This document shows positions 1-23,602 of a stretch of 23,699 nucleotides of DNA, piece by piece (position 1 is the first letter of the stretch; each line of letters starts with the position of its first letter). This DNA comes from a virus: positions 1-23,699 of IMG/VR virus record IMGVR_UViG_3300010885_028878, one strand, 5' to 3'. Under the pieces are notes generated by a model, which was given only the letters and a program-made list of their open reading frames with translations, was not told the origin of the DNA and ran no database searches. The position numbers and the translations under genes were made by a program.

Positions 1-708
1 ATCGATGCTGAGATTACAAATGCTATGGCATATGAAATCCAAGCTGAAATTGACCGTGAAATGATTATCCGTATGATCCAAACTTCCTTAAATGGTGGTT
101 TCGGTAAGGGATACTCAGTATGGCGTCCTTCTACTGCCGATGGTCGTTGGCTTGTTGAACGTAATCGTGACTTCTACCAGAGAGTAATCATCGAAGCAAA
201 CCGTATCGCTATCCGCAATCGTCGTGGACCAGCAAACTTCATCGTAGCTACACCTCGCGTGTGCGCTATCTTTGAAATGTTGCCTGAGTTCCAGTGGGTA
301 ACTGTACAGGGTAATGTTAGCACCCAGTCAACTGGCGTTGCTAAAGTTGGTTCTCTCGGAGGCAGATTCCAAGTTTATCGTGATACAAGAACAGAAGCTC
401 AATATGCAAACATCTATGGCAATAACGGTTACACAGTAAACGGTTCAGCCAAGTCAAGTGGCATTGAGTATGCACTCTTAGGCTATAAGGGAACAGAGTT
501 CTATGATTCAGGTATTATTTACTGCCCATACATTCCTGTTATGATTCAACGTACTATCGGTCCAAACGACTTCGCTCCACGTGTTGGTCTATTGACCCGT
601 TACGGCGTTGTTGATAATATTTTCGGTGCATCACTATATTATCACACAATCATCTTGAAGGATCTTGGCGTAGCATTTACTCCCGGTAATCAAGCGACAT
701 ACTTCTAA
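1..708 (+). CDS. 23: Major capsid protein, T4 gp23-like (3' part)
   Basis: The reading frame is open from the first base, so the gene starts upstream; about 235 C-terminal residues are visible. The segment reading DGRWLVERNRDFY, followed by a conserved EANRIA..RRGPANFIVATP stretch, and the C-terminal PYIPVMIQRTIGPNDFAPR then LLTRYGVVDN block follow the plan of T4 gp23 major head proteins. The protein would form the hexameric lattice of the prohead. In T4 the order is 21 (prohead protease), 22 (scaffold), 23, so the protease gene is expected just left of the window. A strong terminator follows 25 nt after the stop, so this ends a head operon. Identification rests on recognised motifs, not a search. 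Confidence 0.9.
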   Translation: MDAEITNAMAYEIQAEIDREMIIRMIQTSLNGGFGKGYSVWRPSTADGRWLVERNRDFYQRVIIEANRIAIRNRRGPANFIVATPRVCAIFEMLPEFQWVTVQGNVSTQSTGVAKVGSLGGRFQVYRDTRTEAQYANIYGNNGYTVNGSAKSSGIEYALLGYKGTEFYDSGIIYCPYIPVMIQRTIGPNDFAPRVGLLTRYGVVDNIFGASLYYHTIILKDLGVAFTPGNQATYF

Positions 709-733: not shown

Positions 734-770
734 AAAAAAACCCCACTAGAAATAGTGGGGTTTTTTGTTT
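734..770 (+). terminator. Intrinsic terminator after capsid gene
   Basis: An 8-bp perfect stem CCCCACTA/TAGTGGGG closes a GAAA tetraloop (741-760), with seven A before it and TTTTTT after it. A 34-nt block here (737-770) is repeated without change at 2198-2231. The A/T flanks could also let it work for minus-strand RNA. Confidence 0.93.
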
Positions 771-782
771 TTTGTTTTTTAT

Positions 783-790
783 GATAAATA
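783..790 (+). promoter_or_regulatory. Late-promoter-like box, HNH gene
   Basis: GATAAATA lies 7 nt before the ATG at 798 and just after the capsid terminator. It resembles the T4 late box TATAAATA. No Shine-Dalgarno sequence is present. Confidence 0.55.
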
Positions 791-797
791 ATAATAT

Positions 798-1142
798 ATG
801 ACAAGAATAATAAATGCTATTAAAGAAGGTATTCAAGGAAAACCATTAGCTTTAAGATCTTCTCACTGGGAAACTGTAAGGAAGAATCATCTTAAACTAC
901 AACCTACTTGTGCTGCTTGTGGAAATACTAAAGGTTTACAAGTTCATCACAAACAACCATTTCATATTCATCCAGAATTAGAATTGGATGAAAATAATTT
1001 AATCACTTTGTGTGAAGACAAATCAATAGAATGTCATTTTAACATTGGACATTTAAGAGATTGGAAGTCTTTTAATCCTAATGTTGAAATAGATGCTAAA
1101 GAAAAATTACTTTCAATACAAAAAATAAATCAACTTTTATAA
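798..1142 (+). CDS. HNH endonuclease
   Basis: A 114-residue protein with a zinc-type HNH (beta-beta-alpha metal) nuclease core. It has CAAC at 38-41, a VHH pair at 49-51 (H50/H51), N67 in the ENNLITLC segment, C72, and CH at 79-80. The paired cysteines fit the structural zinc and the histidines with N67 the catalytic centre. Small stand-alone HNH proteins in T4-like phages are usually homing nucleases, and some HNH proteins in other phages assist DNA packaging. Its position between two identical terminators, beside the capsid gene, favours a mobile role. No extra DNA-recognition domain is visible. Confidence 0.85.
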   Translation: MTRIINAIKEGIQGKPLALRSSHWETVRKNHLKLQPTCAACGNTKGLQVHHKQPFHIHPELELDENNLITLCEDKSIECHFNIGHLRDWKSFNPNVEIDAKEKLLSIQKINQLL

Positions 1143-1146
1143 AATT

Positions 1147-1344
1147 ATGTTAGAATTTAGAAATCCCATTCCAGTTATAACACCTTTCGGTGAAGGATAT
1201 GCCATATATGTAAGTAATGGTGGTACATTTGAAAATGATATATGGGCTGTATGTCTCATTAAAGGTGGAGATGTACGACATTTTAGATCAGATCAAATCA
1301 AAATTTATAAAAATGGTACATTTGATATTGAAGTTAATCCTTAA
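1147..1344 (+). CDS. Small phage protein of unknown function
   Basis: A 65-residue product starting 4 nt after the HNH stop, so probably co-transcribed with it. It is beta-rich, with ITPFGEGYAIYV, a GGTFENDIWAV segment and a C-terminal DQIKIYKNGTF. I have an impression that similar short proteins occur in T4-like phages of aquatic bacteria, but I cannot name a function. There are no cysteine pairs, signal peptide or membrane segment. It appears intact and has the base composition of its neighbours. Confidence 0.65.
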   Translation: MLEFRNPIPVITPFGEGYAIYVSNGGTFENDIWAVCLIKGGDVRHFRSDQIKIYKNGTFDIEVNP

Positions 1345-1409
1345 CTTTTATATTAAGATAGATATTTTTTATAATAAAGGATTTTATATTAAACAAATAT
1401 TAAAATAAA

Positions 1410-1688
1410 TTATTTCCAATCATGACAGCTCATAGCATTCGGACTTCCTGCTTTTGCATGTCCACATTTATGTCTAGCTTTGAAAGATTTCTTACGTTTG
1501 GTATTACCAGATTTACCAGTTACTCTAACTCCTGCTTGTCCCCAATGTATTCTTTTAATTGATCCATTAGGTTGACGAGCACATTTCATCCACTTCTTCC
1601 CCTTTCTTGTAGAATGTGCCTTTTTTGTAACCTTTGTACACTTTTCTTCCATTACTAAAACCATCTCTAACAATTGTTCAAACTTCAT
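1410..1688 (-). CDS. Small basic Cys/His protein with capsid-targeting-like N-terminus
   Basis: A 92-residue, strongly basic protein. The first 15 residues, MKFEQLLEMVLVMEE, form a short acidic helix much like the start of the gene at 14126 (MKFEELYNMYVEMYE). The body has KKWMKCARQPNGS, GQAGVRVTGKSGNTKRKKS, and a C-terminal KARHKCGH..SPNAMSCHDW. Cysteines and histidines there could bind zinc, and the charge suggests nucleic-acid binding. It is the only minus-strand gene in this structural region and has its own upstream promoter-like box. The N-terminal segment suggests that it is packaged in the head and cleaved there. Function unknown. Confidence 0.65.
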   Translation of the reverse strand: MKFEQLLEMVLVMEEKCTKVTKKAHSTRKGKKWMKCARQPNGSIKRIHWGQAGVRVTGKSGNTKRKKSFKARHKCGHAKAGSPNAMSCHDWK

Positions 1689-1694
1689 AAAATA

Positions 1695-1702
1695 TATTTA
1701 TT
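1695..1702 (-). promoter_or_regulatory. Late-promoter-like box, minus strand
   Basis: AATAAATA read on the minus strand, 6 nt before the ATG at 1688. The neighbouring palindrome CGATATATCG (1703-1712) lies between this and the divergent promoter for the gene at 1775. Confidence 0.55.
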
Positions 1703-1751
1703 CGATATATCGGTTTAAAATAAAATTAATTCAAAAAAATAGAAGAAATTT

Positions 1752-1769
1752 TATAAATAAGAATAAATA
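1752..1769 (+). promoter_or_regulatory. Double late-promoter box before 1775 gene
   Basis: A perfect T4 late box TATAAATA (1752-1759) is followed by AATAAATA (1762-1769). The second ends exactly 5 nt before the ATG at 1775. The first would give a leader of about 10 nt, the second none. Confidence 0.7.
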
Positions 1770-1774
1770 ATATT

Positions 1775-2179
1775 ATGGCTAATTTCGACTATTATGTAAC
1801 TGATGCATCACTAGAATATCCTCCAAAATTAGGAGTAAGTTTATCTGCTGCTGATAATTCTGTAATTTACATACCATCCGCAACTCCAACCTTTAGTGCT
1901 AGTAATGGACAAACAAAGAGTGTAGCTGGTATTTTGTTTAATTATGTTGCTGGTGCAAGTGCCGCAACTACAACTCTCACCATGATTACTGGTACTAGTG
2001 GAGCACAAGTAAAAGTACATCCTGCATATAATGGTCAAACTTTTGCTCTTTATTTTACCGATAATTCAACAACCAAATTCACTGTAGTAACAGGAACTAC
2101 TACTCAAGTATTGACTGCTGCTGTAACATTTGATGATAGAGGTCCAGAAGAAAGACGACACTTTGCATTAGAACTTTAA
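1775..2179 (+). CDS. Probable small virion protein
   Basis: A 134-residue protein rich in Ser, Thr, Ala and Gly, with a predicted all-beta character (repeated hydrophobic/threonine alternation such as ATTTLTMITGTSG and FTVVTGTTTQVLT). It has no cysteine, signal peptide or membrane segment. It ends with a charged FDDRGPEERRHFALEL tail. It has its own late-type promoter and its own strong terminator identical to that of the capsid gene, as expected for an abundantly made structural product. A head decoration or tail protein is possible, but no family is recognised. Confidence 0.7.
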   Translation: MANFDYYVTDASLEYPPKLGVSLSAADNSVIYIPSATPTFSASNGQTKSVAGILFNYVAGASAATTTLTMITGTSGAQVKVHPAYNGQTFALYFTDNSTTKFTVVTGTTTQVLTAAVTFDDRGPEERRHFALEL

Positions 2180-2197
2180 AAATATTTAAGTTTTATC

Positions 2198-2231
2198 AAA
2201 ACCCCACTAGAAATAGTGGGGTTTTTTGTTT
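2198..2231 (+). terminator. Intrinsic terminator, copy of the capsid terminator
   Basis: It has the same 8-bp CCCCACTA/TAGTGGGG stem (2202-2221), GAAA loop and T-run as the terminator at 734-770, identical over 34 nt. It closes the 1775 gene and insulates it from the baseplate operon. Confidence 0.93.
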
Positions 2232-2236
2232 ATGTG

Positions 2237-2244
2237 ATTAAATA
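2237..2244 (+). promoter_or_regulatory. Late-promoter box, baseplate operon
   Basis: ATTAAATA, then TTTTT, then ATG at 2250: a 5-nt gap and no Shine-Dalgarno sequence. It would drive the three genes that follow. Confidence 0.6.
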
Positions 2245-2249
2245 TTTTT

Positions 2250-2831
2250 ATGGGAATGATATATAATAAAACCTCATCAAATATACTTTATCCTATTAAT
2301 AAAAATGTTGACGGATTAATATCCGCTTCAAATGGATTGATGTGTTTAAAGCAAGCTATATTTGGTGCTGCATTAAGTCCTGCTACTATAATGCAAGGTT
2401 TAGCTAGTTATGCTGCTGACATGATCTCTTCCATAGTTAGTGCAGTGACAGAATTAGTAATGGAAAAAGTTGATGAAATTATTGATTCGGTATTATCACC
2501 ATTAAGAAAGATTAGAGGTATCATTAATGATATAACAGCACTATTAGAAGATGTACAAGATCTTATAGATAAGGCTACAAATATGGATAATTACTTTAAT
2601 AGTAGACAAGATTGTTCTTCTATGGCAGCTAATTTATTAGATTGTTTAGCTAAATCAGCAGTTAATAAAATAACAAATAAAGTTGTTATGAATGTTGATA
2701 AGCATTTAACAAAAATAACAGATAGCGTAGCAAAAGAATCTACAAAAGTAAACGGTAAAATTGATGGATTTGTTAATAGAAATACTAGCTTTCTTGATAA
2801 AGCCAATCTTCAGAATAAATTATTAATGTAA
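2250..2831 (+). CDS. Helical structural protein, baseplate-region
   Basis: A 193-residue, mostly helical protein. It has a hydrophobic, alanine-rich stretch at about 35-75, then amphipathic heptad-like helices (KVDEIIDSVLSPLRKIRGII and LLEDVQDLIDKATNM) and a polar C-terminal half. It could start at the second methionine (residue 3), but the late box is placed for the first. It is the first gene of a three-gene unit with the gp5-like hub protein and the long spike-associated protein, with 1 nt between its stop and the next start. A role in the baseplate hub or tail is inferred from position alone. Confidence 0.65.
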   Translation: MGMIYNKTSSNILYPINKNVDGLISASNGLMCLKQAIFGAALSPATIMQGLASYAADMISSIVSAVTELVMEKVDEIIDSVLSPLRKIRGIINDITALLEDVQDLIDKATNMDNYFNSRQDCSSMAANLLDCLAKSAVNKITNKVVMNVDKHLTKITDSVAKESTKVNGKIDGFVNRNTSFLDKANLQNKLLM

Positions 2832-2832
2832 T

Positions 2833-4053
2833 ATGGGAAATTCATTTGACGAAAAACATTACGGTTTCTTTCGGGGAATTGTAACACAAAATAATGATCC
2901 CGAAAGAAGAGGAAGAGTTAAAATCGCAATTCCAGAATTTAGTTCTCAAATATCCAGACATCTGGATGTTCCTGCTGATACATATCAAACTCGTTTCGTG
3001 GGTGGTTCTAATATAGAATCTTTCCTTTCTAAGGATATTATAGAACAATACAACCAAGTATTGATGTGGGCAGAGCAAGCATCTCCATTATTTGCTGGTG
3101 GAACTGCCGGTGTCTATGATGCAAAAAACGCAGTAGCAACTGTTGGTGAAGGACATCGTGGTACTTTAAGAGAACCATTAGGAGAAGAAAGCATTACCCC
3201 TTCTGGCGAGTCTGTATCACCAAAAGCTGCTATGTCCACAAATGCTATTCCCGGAGGCTTTGGCGAAGGACATAAAACTGGAATGTGTGATGTATATAAT
3301 GATTCGTTAGCACCATCACCAATCAATAATGCCACCAAAGGATTATTCTCCGTTCCTAGAGTAGGTTCTCAAGTATGGGTGTTTTTTGAAAACGGAAGTC
3401 TAGATCGACCTGTATATATTGCATACGCATTTGATAAACAAGATTGGAATAGTGTAATGAATCCTCAAGGTAGTAATCCTTCTTTACATTATCCAGCAGG
3501 AGCGGAAAATATGCCAGACGAAGAGCCATTCTTTTTTACTGGTCAAACTGTATTAAATTCTAAAGCAGGATCTATTGAGTTTATAGAAACTGACGATTTT
3601 GAAAAAATAAAAGTATCACATTATAGTGGTTCTTTTTATGAAATTGGTAATCATGTCACTGCTGAAGTCTCAGTAGAAAATAAAATTATAGTAGTAAATC
3701 AAGAAGAGACGCATACTGTAAAAGGCGACAGAGGCTTAAAAGTCGAAGGGGACAGTCATGAAATTTACAGAGGAGATCATTATGTAACATATGGTGATCC
3801 CGACAATAAAACTTTTTATGATCAATGGGTAGAGACTGCAAAACCAGCTTTTTTACATGCTGCAAATTTTTCAGAACAATTTAGATTGATAGAAGATCCC
3901 ACAAATTCTGGAGCATCAAAAGGTGGTCCAAATAAAACATATTCTCATCCAACAAAATTAACACTAGTAACAGATTGGACCAAACTATTGAAAGGAATGA
4001 ATCCATCAGAGTATTCTAAAAAAATACAACATAAAGAATTAGGAGTATCATAA
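2833..4053 (+). CDS. 5: Baseplate hub/spike protein, T4 gp5-like without lysozyme domain
   Basis: A 406-residue protein. The N-terminus reads YGFFRGIVTQNNDPERRGRV then KIAIPEF (about 10-36), the classical start of the gp5/VgrG OB-fold. The OB region continues to GSQVWVFFENGSLDRPVYIAY (about 177-197). The C-terminal part has short VK(V)GD-type repeats (ETHTVKGDRGLKVEGDSHEI, then YRGDHYVTYGD), like the beginning of the gp5 triple-stranded beta-helix. T4 gp5 has a lysozyme domain between these parts; I see no glycosidase motif here. The protein would form the central puncturing hub under the tail tube. The stop overlaps the next start. Confidence 0.8.
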   Translation: MGNSFDEKHYGFFRGIVTQNNDPERRGRVKIAIPEFSSQISRHLDVPADTYQTRFVGGSNIESFLSKDIIEQYNQVLMWAEQASPLFAGGTAGVYDAKNAVATVGEGHRGTLREPLGEESITPSGESVSPKAAMSTNAIPGGFGEGHKTGMCDVYNDSLAPSPINNATKGLFSVPRVGSQVWVFFENGSLDRPVYIAYAFDKQDWNSVMNPQGSNPSLHYPAGAENMPDEEPFFFTGQTVLNSKAGSIEFIETDDFEKIKVSHYSGSFYEIGNHVTAEVSVENKIIVVNQEETHTVKGDRGLKVEGDSHEIYRGDHYVTYGDPDNKTFYDQWVETAKPAFLHAANFSEQFRLIEDPTNSGASKGGPNKTYSHPTKLTLVTDWTKLLKGMNPSEYSKKIQHKELGVS

Positions 4054-6541: not shown

Positions 6542-7174
6542 TTATAAAACTACATCTACCAATCCATACTTTAAACAAGTGGCAGAATCAAACCAAAGAT
6601 CTCTTTTTAGAATATTATCAATTTCTTTCATGGGAATCTTAGTATATTCTTTATATAGAGACTTAATAGTATTCATTATTCTCTTATTATTGTCGTGATC
6701 ATCCACTAATTGTTCAAAAGTCCCAGCGCAAACAGAACTTAATTGATGGATTAACATGAAACTATTCTTTCCTATGAAACGTTTATTTCCAGCAATACTA
6801 ATAATAGTAGCTGCACTTGCTGCTGCACCTTCAACATAAGTATAAACTTTTGTTTTTAAATTCCTAATTGTATCAACCGATGCAAGACCAGCTAATATAT
6901 CTCCACCATAACTATGAATTCTCAAATGAATAATAGGATCAAACGCAGAATCATTCATAGAGATTTTTGCATGTTGCATTCTAGTATCTAATTCTCTTAG
7001 TAATCTATTTAAAGTACTGCAAGATATTGCTGATATATCAGCATAAAAATGAATGGTATTATCTAACGCTTTAATAGATCCTGAAGGCAACAGGATATCA
7101 GTTGTTGGTGAAGATGAAGGAAGATCTCTTTGATCATCTTCTTCGTATGTTTCCGAACCCCAATATTTTCTCAT
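6542..7174 (-). CDS. clpP: ClpP-like serine protease
   Basis: A 210-residue protein of the ClpP/crotonase fold. The core reads IHLRIHSYGGDILAGL (82-97), GAAASAATIISIAG with nucleophile S120, MLIHQL with H143, and RDLWFDSATCLKYGLVD with D192, so the Ser-His-Asp triad is complete. The first 30 residues are polar and likely disordered, perhaps a propeptide. No ClpX-like ATPase is in the window, so it may use a host unfoldase, act on its own, or process a phage protein. A late-type box lies 9 nt upstream, inside the end of the PAS gene. thyX follows after 41 nt. Confidence 0.88.
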   Translation of the reverse strand: MRKYWGSETYEEDDQRDLPSSSPTTDILLPSGSIKALDNTIHFYADISAISCSTLNRLLRELDTRMQHAKISMNDSAFDPIIHLRIHSYGGDILAGLASVDTIRNLKTKVYTYVEGAAASAATIISIAGNKRFIGKNSFMLIHQLSSVCAGTFEQLVDDHDNNKRIMNTIKSLYKEYTKIPMKEIDNILKRDLWFDSATCLKYGLVDVVL

Positions 7175-8244: not shown

Positions 8245-11019
8245 TTAGCCTTCGCAAGAAGCACAAGTTAAAATAGATCGAGCCAGTTCTTGTGCAGGAT
8301 TTGCATTACGTTGATAATAAAGACTCTTAATACCTTGTTCCCAAGCAAAGATCATAAGTTCGTTTACTTCTTTTGGTTTGGTATTTGGAGGAATAAGAAT
8401 GTTTAAACTCTGTCCTTGGTCGATATATTTTTGTCTTTGTGCAGCTTGAATGATGATTTCTTTCTGAGAAATCTCACCAAATGCTTTGAATACATTCTTT
8501 TCAAGATCAGATAAGAAATCAAGATGTTGCACACTACCAGCTTTGGTTAGAATACTCTTCCATGTTTCATCATCGTCTTTGTCATATTTCTTTAATACCT
8601 CTTTCAAATGGGGATTCTTGAAAGAAGAACGAATCTTAGCTAAATCCTTTACGAAATAATTATCACGAAGAGGTTCAATACTAGGAGAAACTTGTCCAAC
8701 AATAAAAGAACTAGAAGTAGTAGGAGCTATTGCTAGTAATGTAGTATTTCTCATGCCATAACCTTTTAATAGTTCTGGTTCTCCATACTCTTGTGCTAAT
8801 TCTCTACTAGCTTCTTCTGATTGTTGCTTCATATGTTTCCATAATTCAACATTCAAAAATTTAGCTTCCATTGATTCAAAAGGAATCATCTTGGATTGAA
8901 GTAATGAATGCCATCCAAGAAGACCTAATCCCAATGCTCTATGGTTAATAGCAAACTTTCTAGGAGCTTCCATAAACCGCATACCTTCGGTTTTATTAAT
9001 GAATTCTGTCATAACAGCATCCAAGAAGTAAATCATGGTTTTAACAGCATCTGTATCTTTCCATTCATCATATGTTTCAGCATTCATTGATGCTAGATTA
9101 CATACAAATGATTCATCAGAACCATTAGGAAGCATAATTTCAGTGCAATTATGTGTAACAAATCCATTACAAATCCAATGATGTTCATCAGAATCTACTG
9201 TAACACAATATACATCTTCTTTACCAACATACTCGATAGAAATTATTTTAAAGAATTTTTTCGTATTATCTCTATATTCTTTATCCTCAACTAATATATT
9301 TTTTCTGTCTAAAAATAATGTATTTTCATTAAATGTCAGTGCGTCATTTTTATTACTAATTATAAGTCTATAACAATCCTGTGTATTATAATATTTCTCT
9401 CCATGCTTTCCATTTGGTAAAAGACTATATCCAGATTTTCTCAATAACTTAATAGAGGATTGCATTCCTAAATTAGATAAAATTAATTGAACTTCCGTCA
9501 AAAAATCTTTATCAATTGATGCCAATGATATTTGAATTGGTTCTCCATTAGAACTAGATTTAAATACTGTTCCATCAGCATAATACAAACCTTTGATATA
9601 TTGCCATTGGGTTAATTCGTCTGATTCCCAAATCCAATCTGGAATATATCCTTTATCGAAATTTAAAGCTTTCTTCAAGGCTTTAGATGTCAATCTTTTT
9701 TTTGCGGAAGAATTTTCTCGAACAACACAATCTACGAACTTTGGATTGTTATACTTTCTTCCAAATTTTGAAATTTGCGTATCATATGTATCACAGACAT
9801 AATCATGATAAGATTGAACTTCTTCTAATAAATCAAAATCATTTTCCCAAATATCAAGCATAATATAATCTTTATGTTGAGTACCGTCTGCTTGATATAA
9901 TCCAAGCAAAAAGGCTTCTTTAGGTTTATGTACACTACCAAATAATCCTTTATTAGTTTGAACAGCTACAAAATCACCAATTTTAAGATCTTTACATTCT
10001 ACATTTTTAGTCAAAACTTCTTGAAAAGATTCTTTCTTTTGTGAAATTTTATCTTTAACTACAACTTTGTGATAATCTGTAATGGTATGACTCATTCCAT
10101 TTTCTAGAGTAATTTTATATACATCTGCATCCTTTTCGATTAGTTGCATCGGCGAAGATTTTACAACTTTTTTATTATCAAATAATAAAAACTCCGAACC
10201 TATTTCATGTAATTCTTTTGCTGTTAATAAACCTAAAGATGATACTACCCTTTGATCTCCAGATACACAAAGATTTGTATGATGAATCTTCATACCTTTA
10301 TCTTTGTAAACTTGAGGCTTATTGTTGTTTACATTATCTGTAAAGAATATATATGGATATCCAGTTTCAAACTTTTTCTTAATTATATCACCCCAAAGTT
10401 TTCTTTTTTCTTTGTCACCATCAATCATGGATTTCATCCATGCATCATCAATACAAACACCAAACGATAGATCTTGAATATTATTTCCTTCTGAACGAAT
10501 TTTAAGAAACTCACCAATATCAGGATGATCAATAGGCAAATATGCAGCAAAAGAACCTCTGCGAACATTACCTTGGGAAACTACATTCATGAGTTTATCA
10601 AACAGTTCCATGAAATGGACCGAGCCTGTTGATTCACCACCAGCAGAAATAGCTGATCCACGCCCTCGTAATGCCCCAAAATAGGCAGATGTTCCTCCAC
10701 CCATCTTGGTCATAATCCCAACCTCAGAAACCTTGTCTAAGATGCCTTCCATCGTGTCTGGAACATAGCTACCAAAACAACTAATAGGTAATCCACGATC
10801 TCTTCCAAAGTTTGAAATGATAGGTGAACTTAATGAATAAAAACCTCTGCTTAAATAATCATTAAATTTATCAGCAAAACCTTTTTTTGCTAAATAATTT
10901 TGTGCAACAGAAGCGATATTAGCATATCTTTGCTTGGCATCTTCACCTTCTAATAAATACCCTCTTTCAAGAAATTTAATAGATTCCTTGTTTAACCAAT
11001 AGTAACTGTCTTTTTTCAT
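8245..11019 (-). CDS. nrdA: Ribonucleotide reductase large subunit with intein
   Basis: A 924-residue precursor; after removal of the intein (residues 251-624), about 550 residues of class I NrdA remain. It reduces ribonucleoside diphosphates to deoxy forms with NrdB. Visible sites are C81 (first redox cysteine, PISCFG), N249-L250 plus C625 and E627 (E. coli N437, C439, E441), C640 in FVCNLASMN (C462), the YY pair at 901-902 (Y730/Y731), and a C-terminal CASC pair. The N-terminal ATP-cone is missing, so it should lack overall activity control by dATP. It follows nrdB and a GIY-YIG gene on the same strand and starts 12 nt after the latter's stop. Confidence 0.95.
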   Translation of the reverse strand: MKKDSYYWLNKESIKFLERGYLLEGEDAKQRYANIASVAQNYLAKKGFADKFNDYLSRGFYSLSSPIISNFGRDRGLPISCFGSYVPDTMEGILDKVSEVGIMTKMGGGTSAYFGALRGRGSAISAGGESTGSVHFMELFDKLMNVVSQGNVRRGSFAAYLPIDHPDIGEFLKIRSEGNNIQDLSFGVCIDDAWMKSMIDGDKEKRKLWGDIIKKKFETGYPYIFFTDNVNNNKPQVYKDKGMKIHHTNLCVSGDQRVVSSLGLLTAKELHEIGSEFLLFDNKKVVKSSPMQLIEKDADVYKITLENGMSHTITDYHKVVVKDKISQKKESFQEVLTKNVECKDLKIGDFVAVQTNKGLFGSVHKPKEAFLLGLYQADGTQHKDYIMLDIWENDFDLLEEVQSYHDYVCDTYDTQISKFGRKYNNPKFVDCVVRENSSAKKRLTSKALKKALNFDKGYIPDWIWESDELTQWQYIKGLYYADGTVFKSSSNGEPIQISLASIDKDFLTEVQLILSNLGMQSSIKLLRKSGYSLLPNGKHGEKYYNTQDCYRLIISNKNDALTFNENTLFLDRKNILVEDKEYRDNTKKFFKIISIEYVGKEDVYCVTVDSDEHHWICNGFVTHNCTEIMLPNGSDESFVCNLASMNAETYDEWKDTDAVKTMIYFLDAVMTEFINKTEGMRFMEAPRKFAINHRALGLGLLGWHSLLQSKMIPFESMEAKFLNVELWKHMKQQSEEASRELAQEYGEPELLKGYGMRNTTLLAIAPTTSSSFIVGQVSPSIEPLRDNYFVKDLAKIRSSFKNPHLKEVLKKYDKDDDETWKSILTKAGSVQHLDFLSDLEKNVFKAFGEISQKEIIIQAAQRQKYIDQGQSLNILIPPNTKPKEVNELMIFAWEQGIKSLYYQRNANPAQELARSILTCASCEG
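9148..10269 (-). mobile_element. Intein with LAGLIDADG endonuclease in nrdA
   Basis: A 374-residue class 1 intein. It begins at C251 (CVSGDQRVV, block A), has a block-B segment ENGMSHTITDYHKVVV (306-321), and ends HHWICNGFVTHN with N624, followed by Cys as the +1 extein residue. Two LAGLIDADG-type helices, FLLGLYQADGT (about 370-380) and YIKGLYYADGT (about 474-484), show a full-size DOD homing endonuclease, both with the acidic residue. All splicing residues are present, so protein splicing is expected. The +1 Cys is also the radical cysteine of NrdA, so the uncut allele would be cut at the most conserved part of the gene. Confidence 0.95.
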
Positions 11020-11031
11020 AATTAATTTTTA

Positions 11032-11769
11032 TTACTTAATAAATTTTTCTTGTTTATCCATCTTTTTTAATTTTCTTTTTTCCCATGCTAGTTTCATTTT
11101 TTGTTTAGTTGATTCGCTATGTTTTTTATTAAACATTTTATTATTTTCTCCAGAATTTATATCACTTAATTTCTTTTTAGTTTCTTCAGAAATTGGATTA
11201 TTTTTATAATATTGTTTCATTATATTAGAATGTTTTTCTCTTTCTAATTTATCATTAAATCTAATCAGATTTTTAGAACTGATTTTTTTTCTCATTTCTT
11301 CACCATTCCACAAAGGATTGTTTTTTCTCCTAGATTCTACCATCTTTAGATATGTCTCTTTTGATCTTTCGCGTTTTTGTTTATTTTGTTTTTCGATAGT
11401 TTCTTTCGATTTAGATTTTTTCATTTTATTTCTAGTAGATTTTTTTAATCTATAACCTCCATTATTTACAAAATCCGATCCTCCGTTATGGAGATTTATA
11501 AACTTTGGATTTTTTGAAGCATTCACTCTTTTCAAAAATTTAGTTTCATAATTTAAAGCTTGTTGCGGAGATTCAAAAATTTTAATTTTTAATACCGTAA
11601 ATGATTCAAGACCATCAGTTTTAATTAAAGATCTAACTAATTTAGATGAAGTTTTGTAACCATTTTCAGTCATAAATTTATTTGGATCTGCTGAATAATT
11701 TATTTTACATCCTGCATAATATTTTTTTGATGGAATATGCTCTATAATATAGAAATATGGTTTATACAT
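11032..11769 (-). CDS. GIY-YIG homing endonuclease
   Basis: A 245-residue, very lysine-rich protein. The N-terminal catalytic domain has FYII (6-9) and YYAG (17-20) as divergent GIY and YIG elements, and a likely metal-binding Glu in NYETKFLKR (E75). The C-terminal half carries short repeated DNA-binding motifs of the NUMOD3 kind, such as NNPLWNGEEMRKKIS and SGENNKMFNKKHSESTKQKM. It sits between nrdB and nrdA, as free-standing homing genes often do in T4-like phages, and would cut relatives lacking it. It has its own perfect late box 5 nt before the ATG. The target is probably in the flanking nrd DNA (inference). Confidence 0.85.
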   Translation of the reverse strand: MYKPYFYIIEHIPSKKYYAGCKINYSADPNKFMTENGYKTSSKLVRSLIKTDGLESFTVLKIKIFESPQQALNYETKFLKRVNASKNPKFINLHNGGSDFVNNGGYRLKKSTRNKMKKSKSKETIEKQNKQKRERSKETYLKMVESRRKNNPLWNGEEMRKKISSKNLIRFNDKLEREKHSNIMKQYYKNNPISEETKKKLSDINSGENNKMFNKKHSESTKQKMKLAWEKRKLKKMDKQEKFIK

Positions 11770-11800: not shown

Positions 11801-12772
11801 TTAGAATAATTCAGATATATCGAAAGATTGTCCTTTTTTAGAATATTCTGTTGGGCGAGAATTAAAAAAATCAGCCATATTATTTGCTAATAATTCTTCT
11901 TCAAACCACATCGAAGAAGAAAGTAATTCTTTATTTATTTTAAATGCATGAGGAAAACCTATTTGTTCTAATGATTGATTCATGCGATTTTTAATAAATT
12001 CTTTTAAAATAGGAGCACTCAAACCTTCCTCATCAAGACCATTGACCATCCAATCCACAATTTTTGATTCGGAAATAAATGCTTCTTCAGCTTCTTTAAG
12101 AATTTTATCCTGCAATTCTTCATCAAATAAGTCGGGATATTCTTCTCTGATAGTATTAATAATTTTTATTCCTATCAATGCATGAAGGTTCTCTTCATTT
12201 CTAGTGTACTTAACTTGTTGGTCTGTATCTTTAAGAACATTCTTGAAGCGAGCAAACCAATTAATTATATAAAATTGAGAAAACAAAGAAACATTTTCCA
12301 CAAATAAAGTAAACAATATAATTGCATACAAATATTGTTTTTTGCTATCTTTGTAAAATTTATGTGTATATTTACGAAGATACTTTACTCTGCCTTGAAT
12401 CCAGTCTAACTTTAGATTTTCTTCGAAGATATCGTCTAAACCCAACACTGTTAAAAGTCGTTCGTAGGCATCGTTATGAATAACTTCAGTGTTAGCCATA
12501 ACATATCCCAAGTCTTGGAAGCAAGGTTGGGGTAAATTGTCTCCCAGTTTTGCCCAGAAGGTTTTTACAGCTACTTCTATCTGACCAATAGCAGATAGAG
12601 TACGAATAATTATTTCTTTTTCTTTTTCGGTCAGAACTACCTTAAATTGATGTAAGTCTGAACTAAACGTGAATTCTTTGTCCGTCCAAAAGCCATCATG
12701 CATAGCTTTTTTGAATTTTTCGGTCCAAGGGTAATTGTTAGGTTTGCGCGAAATTTGTTCATCGAATATCAT
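11801..12772 (-). CDS. nrdB: Ribonucleotide reductase small subunit
   Basis: A 323-residue ferritin-like class I NrdB. It houses the dimetal centre that generates the radical for NrdA. Ligands seen are E96 and H99 in NTEVIHNDAY, with radical tyrosine Y103 (E. coli E115, H118, Y122), E159 in LFVEN, and E194/H197 in RNEENLH. The first ligand, Asp84 in E. coli, appears to be Glu (E66 in IGQIEVAVK). The C-terminus SFDISELF fits the tail that docks on NrdA. It is transcribed first, followed by the GIY-YIG gene (31 nt) and nrdA. A perfect late box lies 9 nt upstream. Confidence 0.94.
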   Translation of the reverse strand: MIFDEQISRKPNNYPWTEKFKKAMHDGFWTDKEFTFSSDLHQFKVVLTEKEKEIIIRTLSAIGQIEVAVKTFWAKLGDNLPQPCFQDLGYVMANTEVIHNDAYERLLTVLGLDDIFEENLKLDWIQGRVKYLRKYTHKFYKDSKKQYLYAIILFTLFVENVSLFSQFYIINWFARFKNVLKDTDQQVKYTRNEENLHALIGIKIINTIREEYPDLFDEELQDKILKEAEEAFISESKIVDWMVNGLDEEGLSAPILKEFIKNRMNQSLEQIGFPHAFKINKELLSSSMWFEEELLANNMADFFNSRPTEYSKKGQSFDISELF

Positions 12773-16821: not shown

Positions 16822-18501
16822 ATGTTTGACAGAGACTCTAAAATGATATGGGAAAACTATTACTATAATAGAATATCAAAATCAAGAAGTTTAAATGAAA
16901 ATTCTGCTGTTGTTGGTATGAATTTGCCTCCCGGACTTGCTAAAACAATAACTGCGTTTGAATTTGAGGAAGATTTAGAAAAAGAACCAACACATAAAAC
17001 TCAACCACAAAATTCTCAACAAGAACCAAAACCAATTTTAAGAAAACAATCAAGTTTTAAAACAGATTTATCAGAGCCAGAATTAGAGCCAGAAGAGGAA
17101 GAAATTCCAGATTCAGATGATGAAGAAGAAGAGCGTATGGTATCATTCAAAGAAGCATTTAACGATGTTGGAGCCGTAGCTAAAATAGTTTCTCCCAAAG
17201 TGATGCAAGGTTGGATGCAAGATACTCATTCAAAGAAAGAATATTTAGATAGAAAAACAGCTTCTCCAGAAGAGATAAGAAAATACGATTCTTCTAAAGC
17301 AAACAGACCTATTATTCATAAAGGTAATGTAGCAGTATTTGAGATTGTTAATAATAATGGAGATACTATTAAAACATATGATCTTGAGGGATACAAAAAA
17401 TTAATTTCAGAAAGACCTAGAGAATTGCTTAAAGCTAATGCAAAAATGGAAAAAAGTGGTGGAGATACATTAGTATTTTATAACACTACACTTCCAGCAA
17501 TTATGGGACTAGCGGTAAACGAAGCTACCGGGGATTTAATTGTAGTTAATACATGTCCGGGTGCAGGAGATTGTAAAATTGATTGTTATGCAAGACATAA
17601 TAATTATATTAAAAATAAAGCAGTTTCTATTAATCAACAAAGAACTTTAAATTATATTTTAAATGATTATGAAGGTTATAAAGAAGAATTAAGAATGACA
17701 TTGCATTTAAATACAATGAAAAATAAAAGAGGAGGAAAAAAAACCGTTCTCAGATTTAATGATTCAGGGGATATGTTATCCGAAAAATATTTTGCAATGG
17801 CAGCAGACTTAGCTCGTTCAATGCCTGATGTATTATTTTATGGATATACAAAATCAATTGCAACTGCAAAAGCAGCAAAACTTCCCGAAAATTTTGTGAT
17901 GAATTATTCAATGGGAGGAAAGCAAGATAGCTTTATTAGTCCTTCTGATAAACAATCCGTTATCATATATCCAGCAAAAGTTTCAGAAAAAACTTCATTT
18001 AATTTGGATGACTTAATTCTCAAGGAATGGTCTATTGAAGATGAAGTCAATATGAAAAAGAAAATTTCTCAAAAATTCAATATACCTGTTAATAGAATTT
18101 TTACTGTTAAAGACGTACAAAATAGTGGACATATGGAATTACCACAAGGTGCTATGATAGTAAAATTACCAGATGAAAAAATTTCAAATTATCCAGAATC
18201 ACAAATTATTGATATAAGAAAAAAAGATCCATCAAAACCAACTAAAAAACTTACGGAAACAATGTCTAAAATTTTTACATCTAGATACATTTATTTAAAT
18301 GGACAAAAAGGTGTTCGGAAATTTAAAGAGGTAATGGCAGCAAATTTTAATATTGATATTAATAAATTGTTGACTATGGATGAACTTATAAATACACCAA
18401 ACGGTAAAGTAAATGAATACAATGTTATTGTTTTACCCGGTGAATCGGATCTTTCTGCTGCTAGAAGAGATGTTCACGTTACATTCTTATATTTACACTA
18501 A
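16822..18501 (+). CDS. Gp88-like cysteine-motif protein, candidate packaged
   Basis: A 559-residue protein. It begins MFDRDSKMIWENYYYN, similar to the unrelated gene at 22096 (MYNKDNLILESLY), so probably a second type of head-targeting tag. Residues ~50-105 are a disordered, very acidic linker. The core (~214-400) has CPGAGDCKIDCYA (C245, C251, C255), VLRFNDSGDMLSEKYF (309-324), and FYGYTKS (339-345). This combination matches the phage Gp88-type family as I recall it; the three cysteines could bind a metal or an iron-sulfur cluster. The biochemical activity is unknown. The C-terminal ~130 residues look like a separate repeat-type region (KIFTSRYIYLNGQKG). It is first in a three-gene + unit. 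Confidence 0.7.
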   Translation: MFDRDSKMIWENYYYNRISKSRSLNENSAVVGMNLPPGLAKTITAFEFEEDLEKEPTHKTQPQNSQQEPKPILRKQSSFKTDLSEPELEPEEEEIPDSDDEEEERMVSFKEAFNDVGAVAKIVSPKVMQGWMQDTHSKKEYLDRKTASPEEIRKYDSSKANRPIIHKGNVAVFEIVNNNGDTIKTYDLEGYKKLISERPRELLKANAKMEKSGGDTLVFYNTTLPAIMGLAVNEATGDLIVVNTCPGAGDCKIDCYARHNNYIKNKAVSINQQRTLNYILNDYEGYKEELRMTLHLNTMKNKRGGKKTVLRFNDSGDMLSEKYFAMAADLARSMPDVLFYGYTKSIATAKAAKLPENFVMNYSMGGKQDSFISPSDKQSVIIYPAKVSEKTSFNLDDLILKEWSIEDEVNMKKKISQKFNIPVNRIFTVKDVQNSGHMELPQGAMIVKLPDEKISNYPESQIIDIRKKDPSKPTKKLTETMSKIFTSRYIYLNGQKGVRKFKEVMAANFNIDINKLLTMDELINTPNGKVNEYNVIVLPGESDLSAARRDVHVTFLYLH

Positions 18502-23555: not shown

Positions 23556-23558
23556 ATC

Positions 23559-23602
23559 GAGGCGAGTTGCTTGTAGAGGCGAGGCGAGTTGCTTGTAGAG
23601 GG
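23559..23602 (+). repeat. 22-bp tandem duplication
   Basis: Two head-to-tail copies of a unit beginning GAGGCGAGTTGCTTGTAGAG (23559-23580 and 23581-23602), differing only in the last base. The unit itself contains the GAGGCGAG word that is scattered in this region. Confidence 0.9.

Follow-up and report, generated by a model that had tools for sequence, protein, structure and literature searches.

Probable copying of a terminator hairpin between two adjoining late units in a T4-like phage

Why should two adjoining units of one phage genome end in the same terminator, base for base? The question is raised by a 23,699-nt stretch of viral DNA (IMG/VR record IMGVR_UViG_3300010885_028878, a T4-like phage fragment; here called the window), in which one sequence follows both the major capsid gene (TERM1) and the gene starting at position 1775 (TERM2). 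A repeat search of the record confirmed what the initial annotation had noticed, namely, a direct repeat with 34 of 34 positions identical and a spacing of 1461 nt. This pair was the longest perfect repeat reported in the record, the next being a 22-nt tandem pair at 23558-23601. Further copies had been suggested as something to look for in the complete genome; in the whole 23,699-base record, no third copy was found at up to three mismatches to the 20-nt hairpin, and there were none in 100 shuffles. Both copies fold into an 8-bp G+C-rich stem (CCCCACTA/TAGTGGGG) with an A-T extension, a GAAA loop, and a T-tract, with predicted folding energies of -20.5 kcal/mol for TERM1 and -18.2 kcal/mol for TERM2 (z, -5.5 and -4.4, respectively). 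TERM1 starts 28 nt past the capsid stop codon and TERM2 18 nt past that of the 1775 gene, and at both sites the G+C-rich stem-loop 3' of the gene is followed immediately by a T-run. A search of Rfam at the gathering threshold gave no matches. The two elements are strong predicted intrinsic terminators, at which transcription presumably ends.

Table 1. Features of the terminator locus and late-type boxes of the window
Feature	Position	Strand	Remarks
gp23-type major capsid gene, 3' part	1-708	+	Cut by window start; Pfam Gp23, E 4.3e-48; PHROG 138, major head protein
TERM1	737-770	+	Hairpin 741-760, behind capsid gene; T-run on minus strand too
Late-type box ATAAATA	784-790	+	Precedes HNH gene
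HNH endonuclease gene	798-1142	+	Adjoins TERM1 in cassette; Pfam HNH, E 5e-5; PHROG 144, E 2e-11
Small ORF	1147-1344	+	Also in island of L019, L021, L102, L103, L104, and L111
Small basic protein, common island gene	1410-1688	-	Weakly DUF5754-like, under Pfam cutoff
Late-type box ATAAATA of minus-strand ORF	1695-1701	-	
Two late-type boxes, ATAAATA at 1753 and 1763	1753-1769	+	Precede 1775 gene
1775 gene	1775-2179	+	Conserved single-gene unit behind capsid gene; likely virion protein
TERM2	2198-2231	+	Hairpin 2202-2221, behind 1775 gene; native home of the sequence
Late-type box TAAATA	2239-2244	+	11 nt before 2250 gene
2250 gene	2250-2831	+	Conserved, right of TERM2; weak baseplate/tail-like matches
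gp5-like baseplate hub gene	2833-4053	+	Phage_base_V
TAAATA boxes before starts	785, 1764, 2239, 14349, 15231, 16811	+	Distance 11 nt (785: 13)
TAAATA boxes before starts	1700, 11780, 14346, 15199, 16774, 20033, 22691	-	Distance 11 nt (1700: 12)

The enclosed segment contains the HNH gene, two small ORFs, and the 1775 gene, as originally listed (Table 1). The label "structural-type" given to the 1775 gene agrees with its place and promoter, whereas Pfam and PHROG returned no match and hence no structural identification; its product is likely a virion protein, judged only by the conserved place and the late-type promoter. An AlphaFold model of this protein (11-row alignment) was uninformative, with a mean pLDDT of 39, and tblastn of the 1775 and 2833 proteins against named phages gave no matches. 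A scan with the HNH protein found 14 further, more distant HNH relatives. The scan with the 2250 protein returned three stretches and no relatives, which says nothing about absence, since it missed relatives of 42 to 64% identity present in the loci already collected.

Elsewhere in the window, the gene for the large subunit of ribonucleotide reductase (RNR) contains a LAGLIDADG intein (8245-11019, minus strand), and a GIY-YIG/NUMOD3 endonuclease gene (11032-11769, minus strand) lies between it and the presumed small-subunit gene at 11801-12772, which was assigned by eye. At the right end of the contig (~22800-23699), the GC content rises to 54%, compared with 23 to 44% in earlier 600-base bins, and the perfect 22-nt tandem repeat lies within this segment. 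The right end had no match among named phages and is possibly foreign or chimeric.

Related loci were collected with the capsid protein, and the best 80 of 597 relatives were kept; all locus counts rest on this sample, which later scans extended to 124 loci with a readable capsid end, and very near relatives of the window may be missing from the scans. Collapsing identical capsid ends reduced the 124 loci to 84 distinct ones, 78 of which had at least 60 nt behind the gene. Throughout the closest group, the order was constant: capsid gene, TERM1, a variable island, the 1775 gene, TERM2, the 2250 gene, and the gp5-like gene. The positions of TERM1 and TERM2 are both ancestral, old, and separate. 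The island between them is variable (~0.1 to 5.4 kb) and changes independently of them: the distance from the capsid end to the 1775 start ranged from 80 nt in distant loci to 5360 nt in L175, and two loci without a cassette (L017, identical to L112, and L020, identical to L149) had a gap of 107 to 108 nt. The window, L014, L019, L022, L026, L028, L004, and L010 had an HNH relative, either between the capsid and 1775 genes or 3' of the capsid gene; L112 and L149 had none. Second TERM1-like hairpins were seen inside the island of L107 (2970-3887; CCCGTAGAGAAATCTACGGG) and L111 (4348-4693; GCCCATAGAGAAATCTATGGGC), the former behind a frame whose end, by eye, resembles the homing endonuclease gene of L014 (PHROG 314).

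Among the 33 distinct loci in which both 3' regions were available for comparison, the longest stretch shared by TERM1 and TERM2 was 34 nt in the window and 0 to 10 nt in the other 32, in a comparison that demanded at least three G/C and so ignored pure A/T matches; the maximum in 1024 cross-locus comparisons was 13 nt. Only the TERM1 stem of the window had changed. All 27 other distinct capsid loci with at least 81% identity and enough 3' sequence carried another TERM1 hairpin, and among the TERM1 hairpins listed, the CCCCACTA stem was found in the window only. Close relatives have the stem ..CAGA-GAAA-TCTG.., and stems in the near group include GAACCACAGA, CCCGCAGA, CCCGTGGA, CACCGCAGA, CCCCGCAGA, and similar sequences. 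TERM2 stems are also variable (CCCCACTA, CCCCACCA, CCCCGC, CCCAGC, CCCCGTC, and others). The nearest relatives and sister of the window, L100/L014 (branch support, 100/99), combine an ordinary TERM1, GAACCACAGA-GAAA-TCTGTGGTTC, with the TERM2 that they have in common with the window, and the direction of change is therefore most simply from TERM2 to TERM1. The flank upstream of TERM1 in the window was 57 to 65% identical to the TERM1 flanks of five relatives and 53% identical to the flank of its own TERM2. We infer copying rather than a double origin: a TERM2-type hairpin was probably copied onto TERM1 in the window lineage by a very short ectopic exchange.

A double origin would mean that chance mutation, constrained by pairing, brought TERM1 to the stem of TERM2. 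The two hairpins do have the GAAA loop, the A-tract, and the T-tract in common, stems change often in the clade, and if pairing is maintained a CCCGCAGA-type TERM1 differs from the TERM2 stem at only four pairs, a number that makes such convergence unlikely and not astronomically so. The state was seen in 1 of 33 loci, however, without intermediate stems, and its sequence is very rare elsewhere. An exact match to the 20-mer of the window hairpin occurred in 11 IMG/VR contigs and twice in a GTDB collection of 84,980 genomes, a scarcity implying that independent origin is rare. The 20-mer was the TERM2 in four of the 11 contigs (L004, L005/L014, L008, and L010); it stood with a T-run next to unrelated genes in L001 and L011, which have one common context, and in L009, and it was not clearly a terminator in L002, L003, L006, and L007, in the last of which ATTTTT follows. 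Forty-three stretches contained the TERM1-type core CCRCAGAGAAATCTGYGG, with one match apiece. Furthermore, the TERM2-type hairpin was single-copy in the long relatives G001 (87 kb) and G005 (236 kb), and no identical hairpins at two places were present among the 8 and 14 terminator sites scanned in these two genomes, respectively. Taken with these counts, chance convergence is a very unlikely origin of the window's TERM1.

At TERM1 and TERM2 alike, loops are mostly constant (GAAA, GATTGCTA, or GCCGAAGA by subgroup) while stems vary. Across the capsid-gene hairpins, an 8-nt or 4-nt loop (GCCGAAGA, GATTGCTA, or GAAA) was preserved and the stems were rewritten, which suggests that the structured loops are under selection. 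The hairpin is thus preserved as a structure with fairly free stem letters, and the exact identity of TERM1 and TERM2 is for that reason hard to attribute to selection.

The proposed copying can be laid out as follows. TERM1 and TERM2 would end two adjoining late transcription units, those of the capsid gene and the 1775 gene, and the site between the units would be tolerant, with homing-endonuclease-type and other small genes coming and going and neither unit harmed. In the window, the TERM1 hairpin would have been overwritten by a TERM2-type copy through a very short exchange with its joints in the A-tract (left) and the T-tract (right) common to these terminators. The copy could have come from gene conversion or from template switching within one genome, or from a crossover with the terminator of another phage. 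Against the proposal stand the A/T-rich flanks, which show no clear exchange borders, and the occurrence of the state in one genome.

In a related scenario, the hairpin would be the leading edge of an incoming HNH cassette, a donor with this terminator to the left of its HNH gene having crossed over with the recipient at TERM1, as at a joint like those of the PeSL (promoter early stem-loop) elements discussed below. The HNH start lies only 37 nt past the changed hairpin, further TERM1-like hairpins occur within the island of L107 and L111, and a terminator copy accompanies an insertion behind the capsid gene in the sister-clade loci L033 and L036. In L022, however, the HNH gene occupies the equivalent place 27 nt past an ordinary TERM1, so that gain of an HNH gene needs no matching terminators, and no HNH gene was among the downstream ORFs listed for the 11 contigs with the 20-mer (at most two ORFs each; none in L003). 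We consider this origin unlikely and prefer copying of a TERM2-type hairpin.

The initial annotation had proposed that recombination between the direct repeats could remove or add the cassette, all 1.4 kb of it. T4-type recombination reportedly works with ~50 bp of homology and perhaps less (PMC4177764), and such a repeat-bounded arrangement is present in L033 and L036. Recombination between the repeats would remove the 1775 gene, however, and this gene was kept in all 17 distinct loci that hold the capsid and 2250 genes in this order, leaving the deletion model unsupported here; the window and 13 of these loci were reached independently via the capsid protein or the TERM1 pattern, and L008, L106, and L107, found only via TERM2 or 1775 scans, could not have lacked these elements. 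Relatives with a single terminator and no cassette at this locus were absent from the sample: the cassette-free L112 and L149 retain two different terminators. No product of recombination between TERM1 and TERM2 was seen among the loci compared. For the window locus, recombination between the repeats is accordingly highly improbable, and the general idea held in the sister clade described below. The other readings offered in the initial annotation did not survive. A duplicated expression unit is contradicted by a match limited to the hairpin and its A/T flanks, and simple reuse of one terminator after many genes around a conserved cassette by the single-copy hairpin in long relatives and the variation of the cassette.

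Imperfect duplications behind the capsid gene were scanned in 71 loci, with values of 89 in L036, 75 in L033, 68 in the window, and 47 in L010, compared with a maximum of 29 in a reversed-query control. Lower-ranking candidates, L076/L077 (41), L022 (38), L020 (32), and L024 (30), were rejected as A/T-rich, promoter-like, or partial terminator matches. In L033 (identical to L186) and L036, the hairpin GCGCTGGAG-GATTGCTA-CTCCAGCGC (26 nt) occurs twice, 1860 nt apart (cassette at 4970-7200 in L033 and 6680-8930 in L036), with no third copy at up to three mismatches in 50,945 bases of L033 and 203,774 bases of L036. In L032 (224,703 bases), the hairpin occurs once and is followed directly by the gene that lies past the second copy in L033 and L036 (empty site, 6680-7100); L034 and L037, which branch outside, have one hairpin, with another stem and the same loop, before that gene. 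A repeat-bounded cassette with an empty site in relatives, as originally envisaged for the window, was thus found in this clade. The repeat extends over ~75 nt and comprises the capsid gene end and the terminator, and in L036 it takes in the final 9 nt of that gene. Downstream, the right copy matched L032 at 70% and the left copy at 49%, compared with 65% and 64% upstream; on this comparison, we lean toward the left copy as the import and the right copy as the native end, displaced. The 1.86-kb insert has two ORFs with weak PHROG matches and no Pfam match: one matches a family of unknown function and has an endonuclease-like motif by eye only, and the other has matches to a second such family (E, 2e-8) and to DNA methyltransferases (E, 1e-4).

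Assembly might also yield a repeated terminator if two genomes were joined at a short common repeat. A 34-nt repeat falls within assembler k-mer sizes, and the different composition from ~22,800 onward makes a join elsewhere in the contig possible. Conserved gene order, however, flanks both terminators on either side, and the capsid-side flank with the window hairpin must have existed in the reads, and an artefact is therefore an extremely doubtful explanation of the pair.

Late-type boxes are regularly placed at the same locus. For the 1775 gene, TAAATA lay exactly 11 nt ahead of the start in all 33 distinct loci. The distance was 11 to 13 nt for the 2250 gene (15 of 15 loci, 13 at exactly 11), the HNH gene (8 of 8, 7 at 11), and the minus-strand ORF (24 of 25, 19 at 11), and none of 62 capsid starts had the box at 11 nt; these counts gave start codons a few codons' freedom, which favours matches. 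Genome-wide, the box-start distance also peaked sharply at 11 (60 ORF starts in G005, 39 in G009, 33 in G001, and 11 in the window, counts that include alternative starts and overlapping frames). TAAATA-N5-ATG versus the N8 spacing gave 34/2 in G001, 72/5 in G005, 42/5 in G006, 42/11 in G009, 30/7 in G013, 25/3 in G014, 25/4 in G015, and 10/2 in G018, compared with 10/6 in T4, 2/0 in S-SM2, 5/4 in Melnitz-3, 14/3 in HTVC008M, and 1/2 in C48C1; the control, the N5 motif read backward, gave 1 to 5 per record. Enrichment of N5 was clear in 8 of 8 relatives, moderate in HTVC008M, and not clear in T4, S-SM2, Melnitz-3, and C48C1. Seven of seven relatives tested contained a relative of the annotated late sigma factor of phage C48C1, that of G005 being the weakest and most doubtful (E, 2e-8; 502-aa frame). 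Some motif-bearing late genes of G005 (e.g., those for 529-, 410-, 325-, and 299-aa proteins), and perhaps the window gene at 16822, encode an N-terminal pattern like MNDxxLIWExY, which we take to be reminiscent of the capsid-targeting peptide of T4 internal head proteins.

A Shine-Dalgarno-like stretch preceded 1 of 129 TAAATA-N5-ATG genes (at least 80 aa) versus 46 of 502 others, a gap partly built in because the fixed box occupies six of the positions searched. Late boxes of T4 are described as lying roughly one turn of the helix ahead of the transcription start (PMC2988020), a spacing that would put the start point on or beside the A of the ATG, and late mRNAs in this clade are thus predicted to be leaderless. 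Phage transcripts in general are often leaderless (PMC5312081); leaderless late mRNAs of T4-like phages were mentioned in none of the titles and abstract starts among the matches listed in a literature search. The late box of cyanophages has been given as NATAAATA (PMC2984593). The TAAATA-N5-ATG motif possibly has a translational role. Tentatively, and with more doubt than confidence, the late genes may be viewed as plug-in units in which a terminator is followed by TAAATA-N5-ATG without a Shine-Dalgarno sequence and a leaderless mRNA, the joint between terminator and box being the seam for cassettes and hairpins; a gene carrying such a joint would then be expressed wherever it landed. Leaderless late transcription, if confirmed by RNA data, would be unusual as a way of expressing T4-type late genes, and this observation is the more surprising lead of the analysis.

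The locus has counterparts in known phages. Free-standing homing endonuclease genes (seg/mob) sit between conserved genes in T4-like phages (PMC2988022), as does the endonuclease gene here, for which homing is putative; the L033/L036 insert differs in being bounded by the ~75-nt repeats of capsid end and terminator. T4 itself has the order 23, segD (minus strand), 24, with terminators reported up- and downstream of segD (PMC2988022). A hairpin and T-run follow gene 23 in the T4 record, and a terminator was predicted behind this gene in six of six T4-like genomes compared (PMC1524935), from which it follows that the hairpin behind gene 23 is old. As with segD, a homing endonuclease gene lies directly behind the major capsid gene and is present in some relatives and absent from others. 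In contrast to T4, the window has an HNH rather than a GIY-YIG endonuclease, the 1775 gene in place of gene 24 as its right-hand unit, and two terminators of identical sequence.

PeSL elements (Arbiol et al. 2010, Comeau et al. 2014) are described as short intercistronic composites of a stem-loop and a promoter through which genes of T4-type phages are proposed to be shuffled (PMC4503421, PMC3950731), and their density is high where genes shuffle (PMC4503421). The window likewise has a stem-loop and a promoter-like box in intercistronic space, with TAAATA 24 nt from the hairpin end at TERM1 and 17 nt at TERM2. The adjacent box is of late type, however, two copies stand against the many of PeSL (one each in G001 and G005), and only one hairpin was exchanged; none of 60 listed sigma-70-like sites lay between TERM1 and the HNH start, with 35 weaker ones outside this list. 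With two copies rather than many and an early promoter in doubt, the window terminators are not classed as PeSL, and they may function like one. Terminators are among the regulatory signals proposed as recombination seams (PMC4177764), an idea that the window, together with the sister-clade insertion and its empty site, makes testable in T4-like phages. The window offers a clean case, from nature, in which the identity of a terminator hairpin changes between adjoining late units, and it adds one more instance to a kind of phage gene shuffling that is already known.
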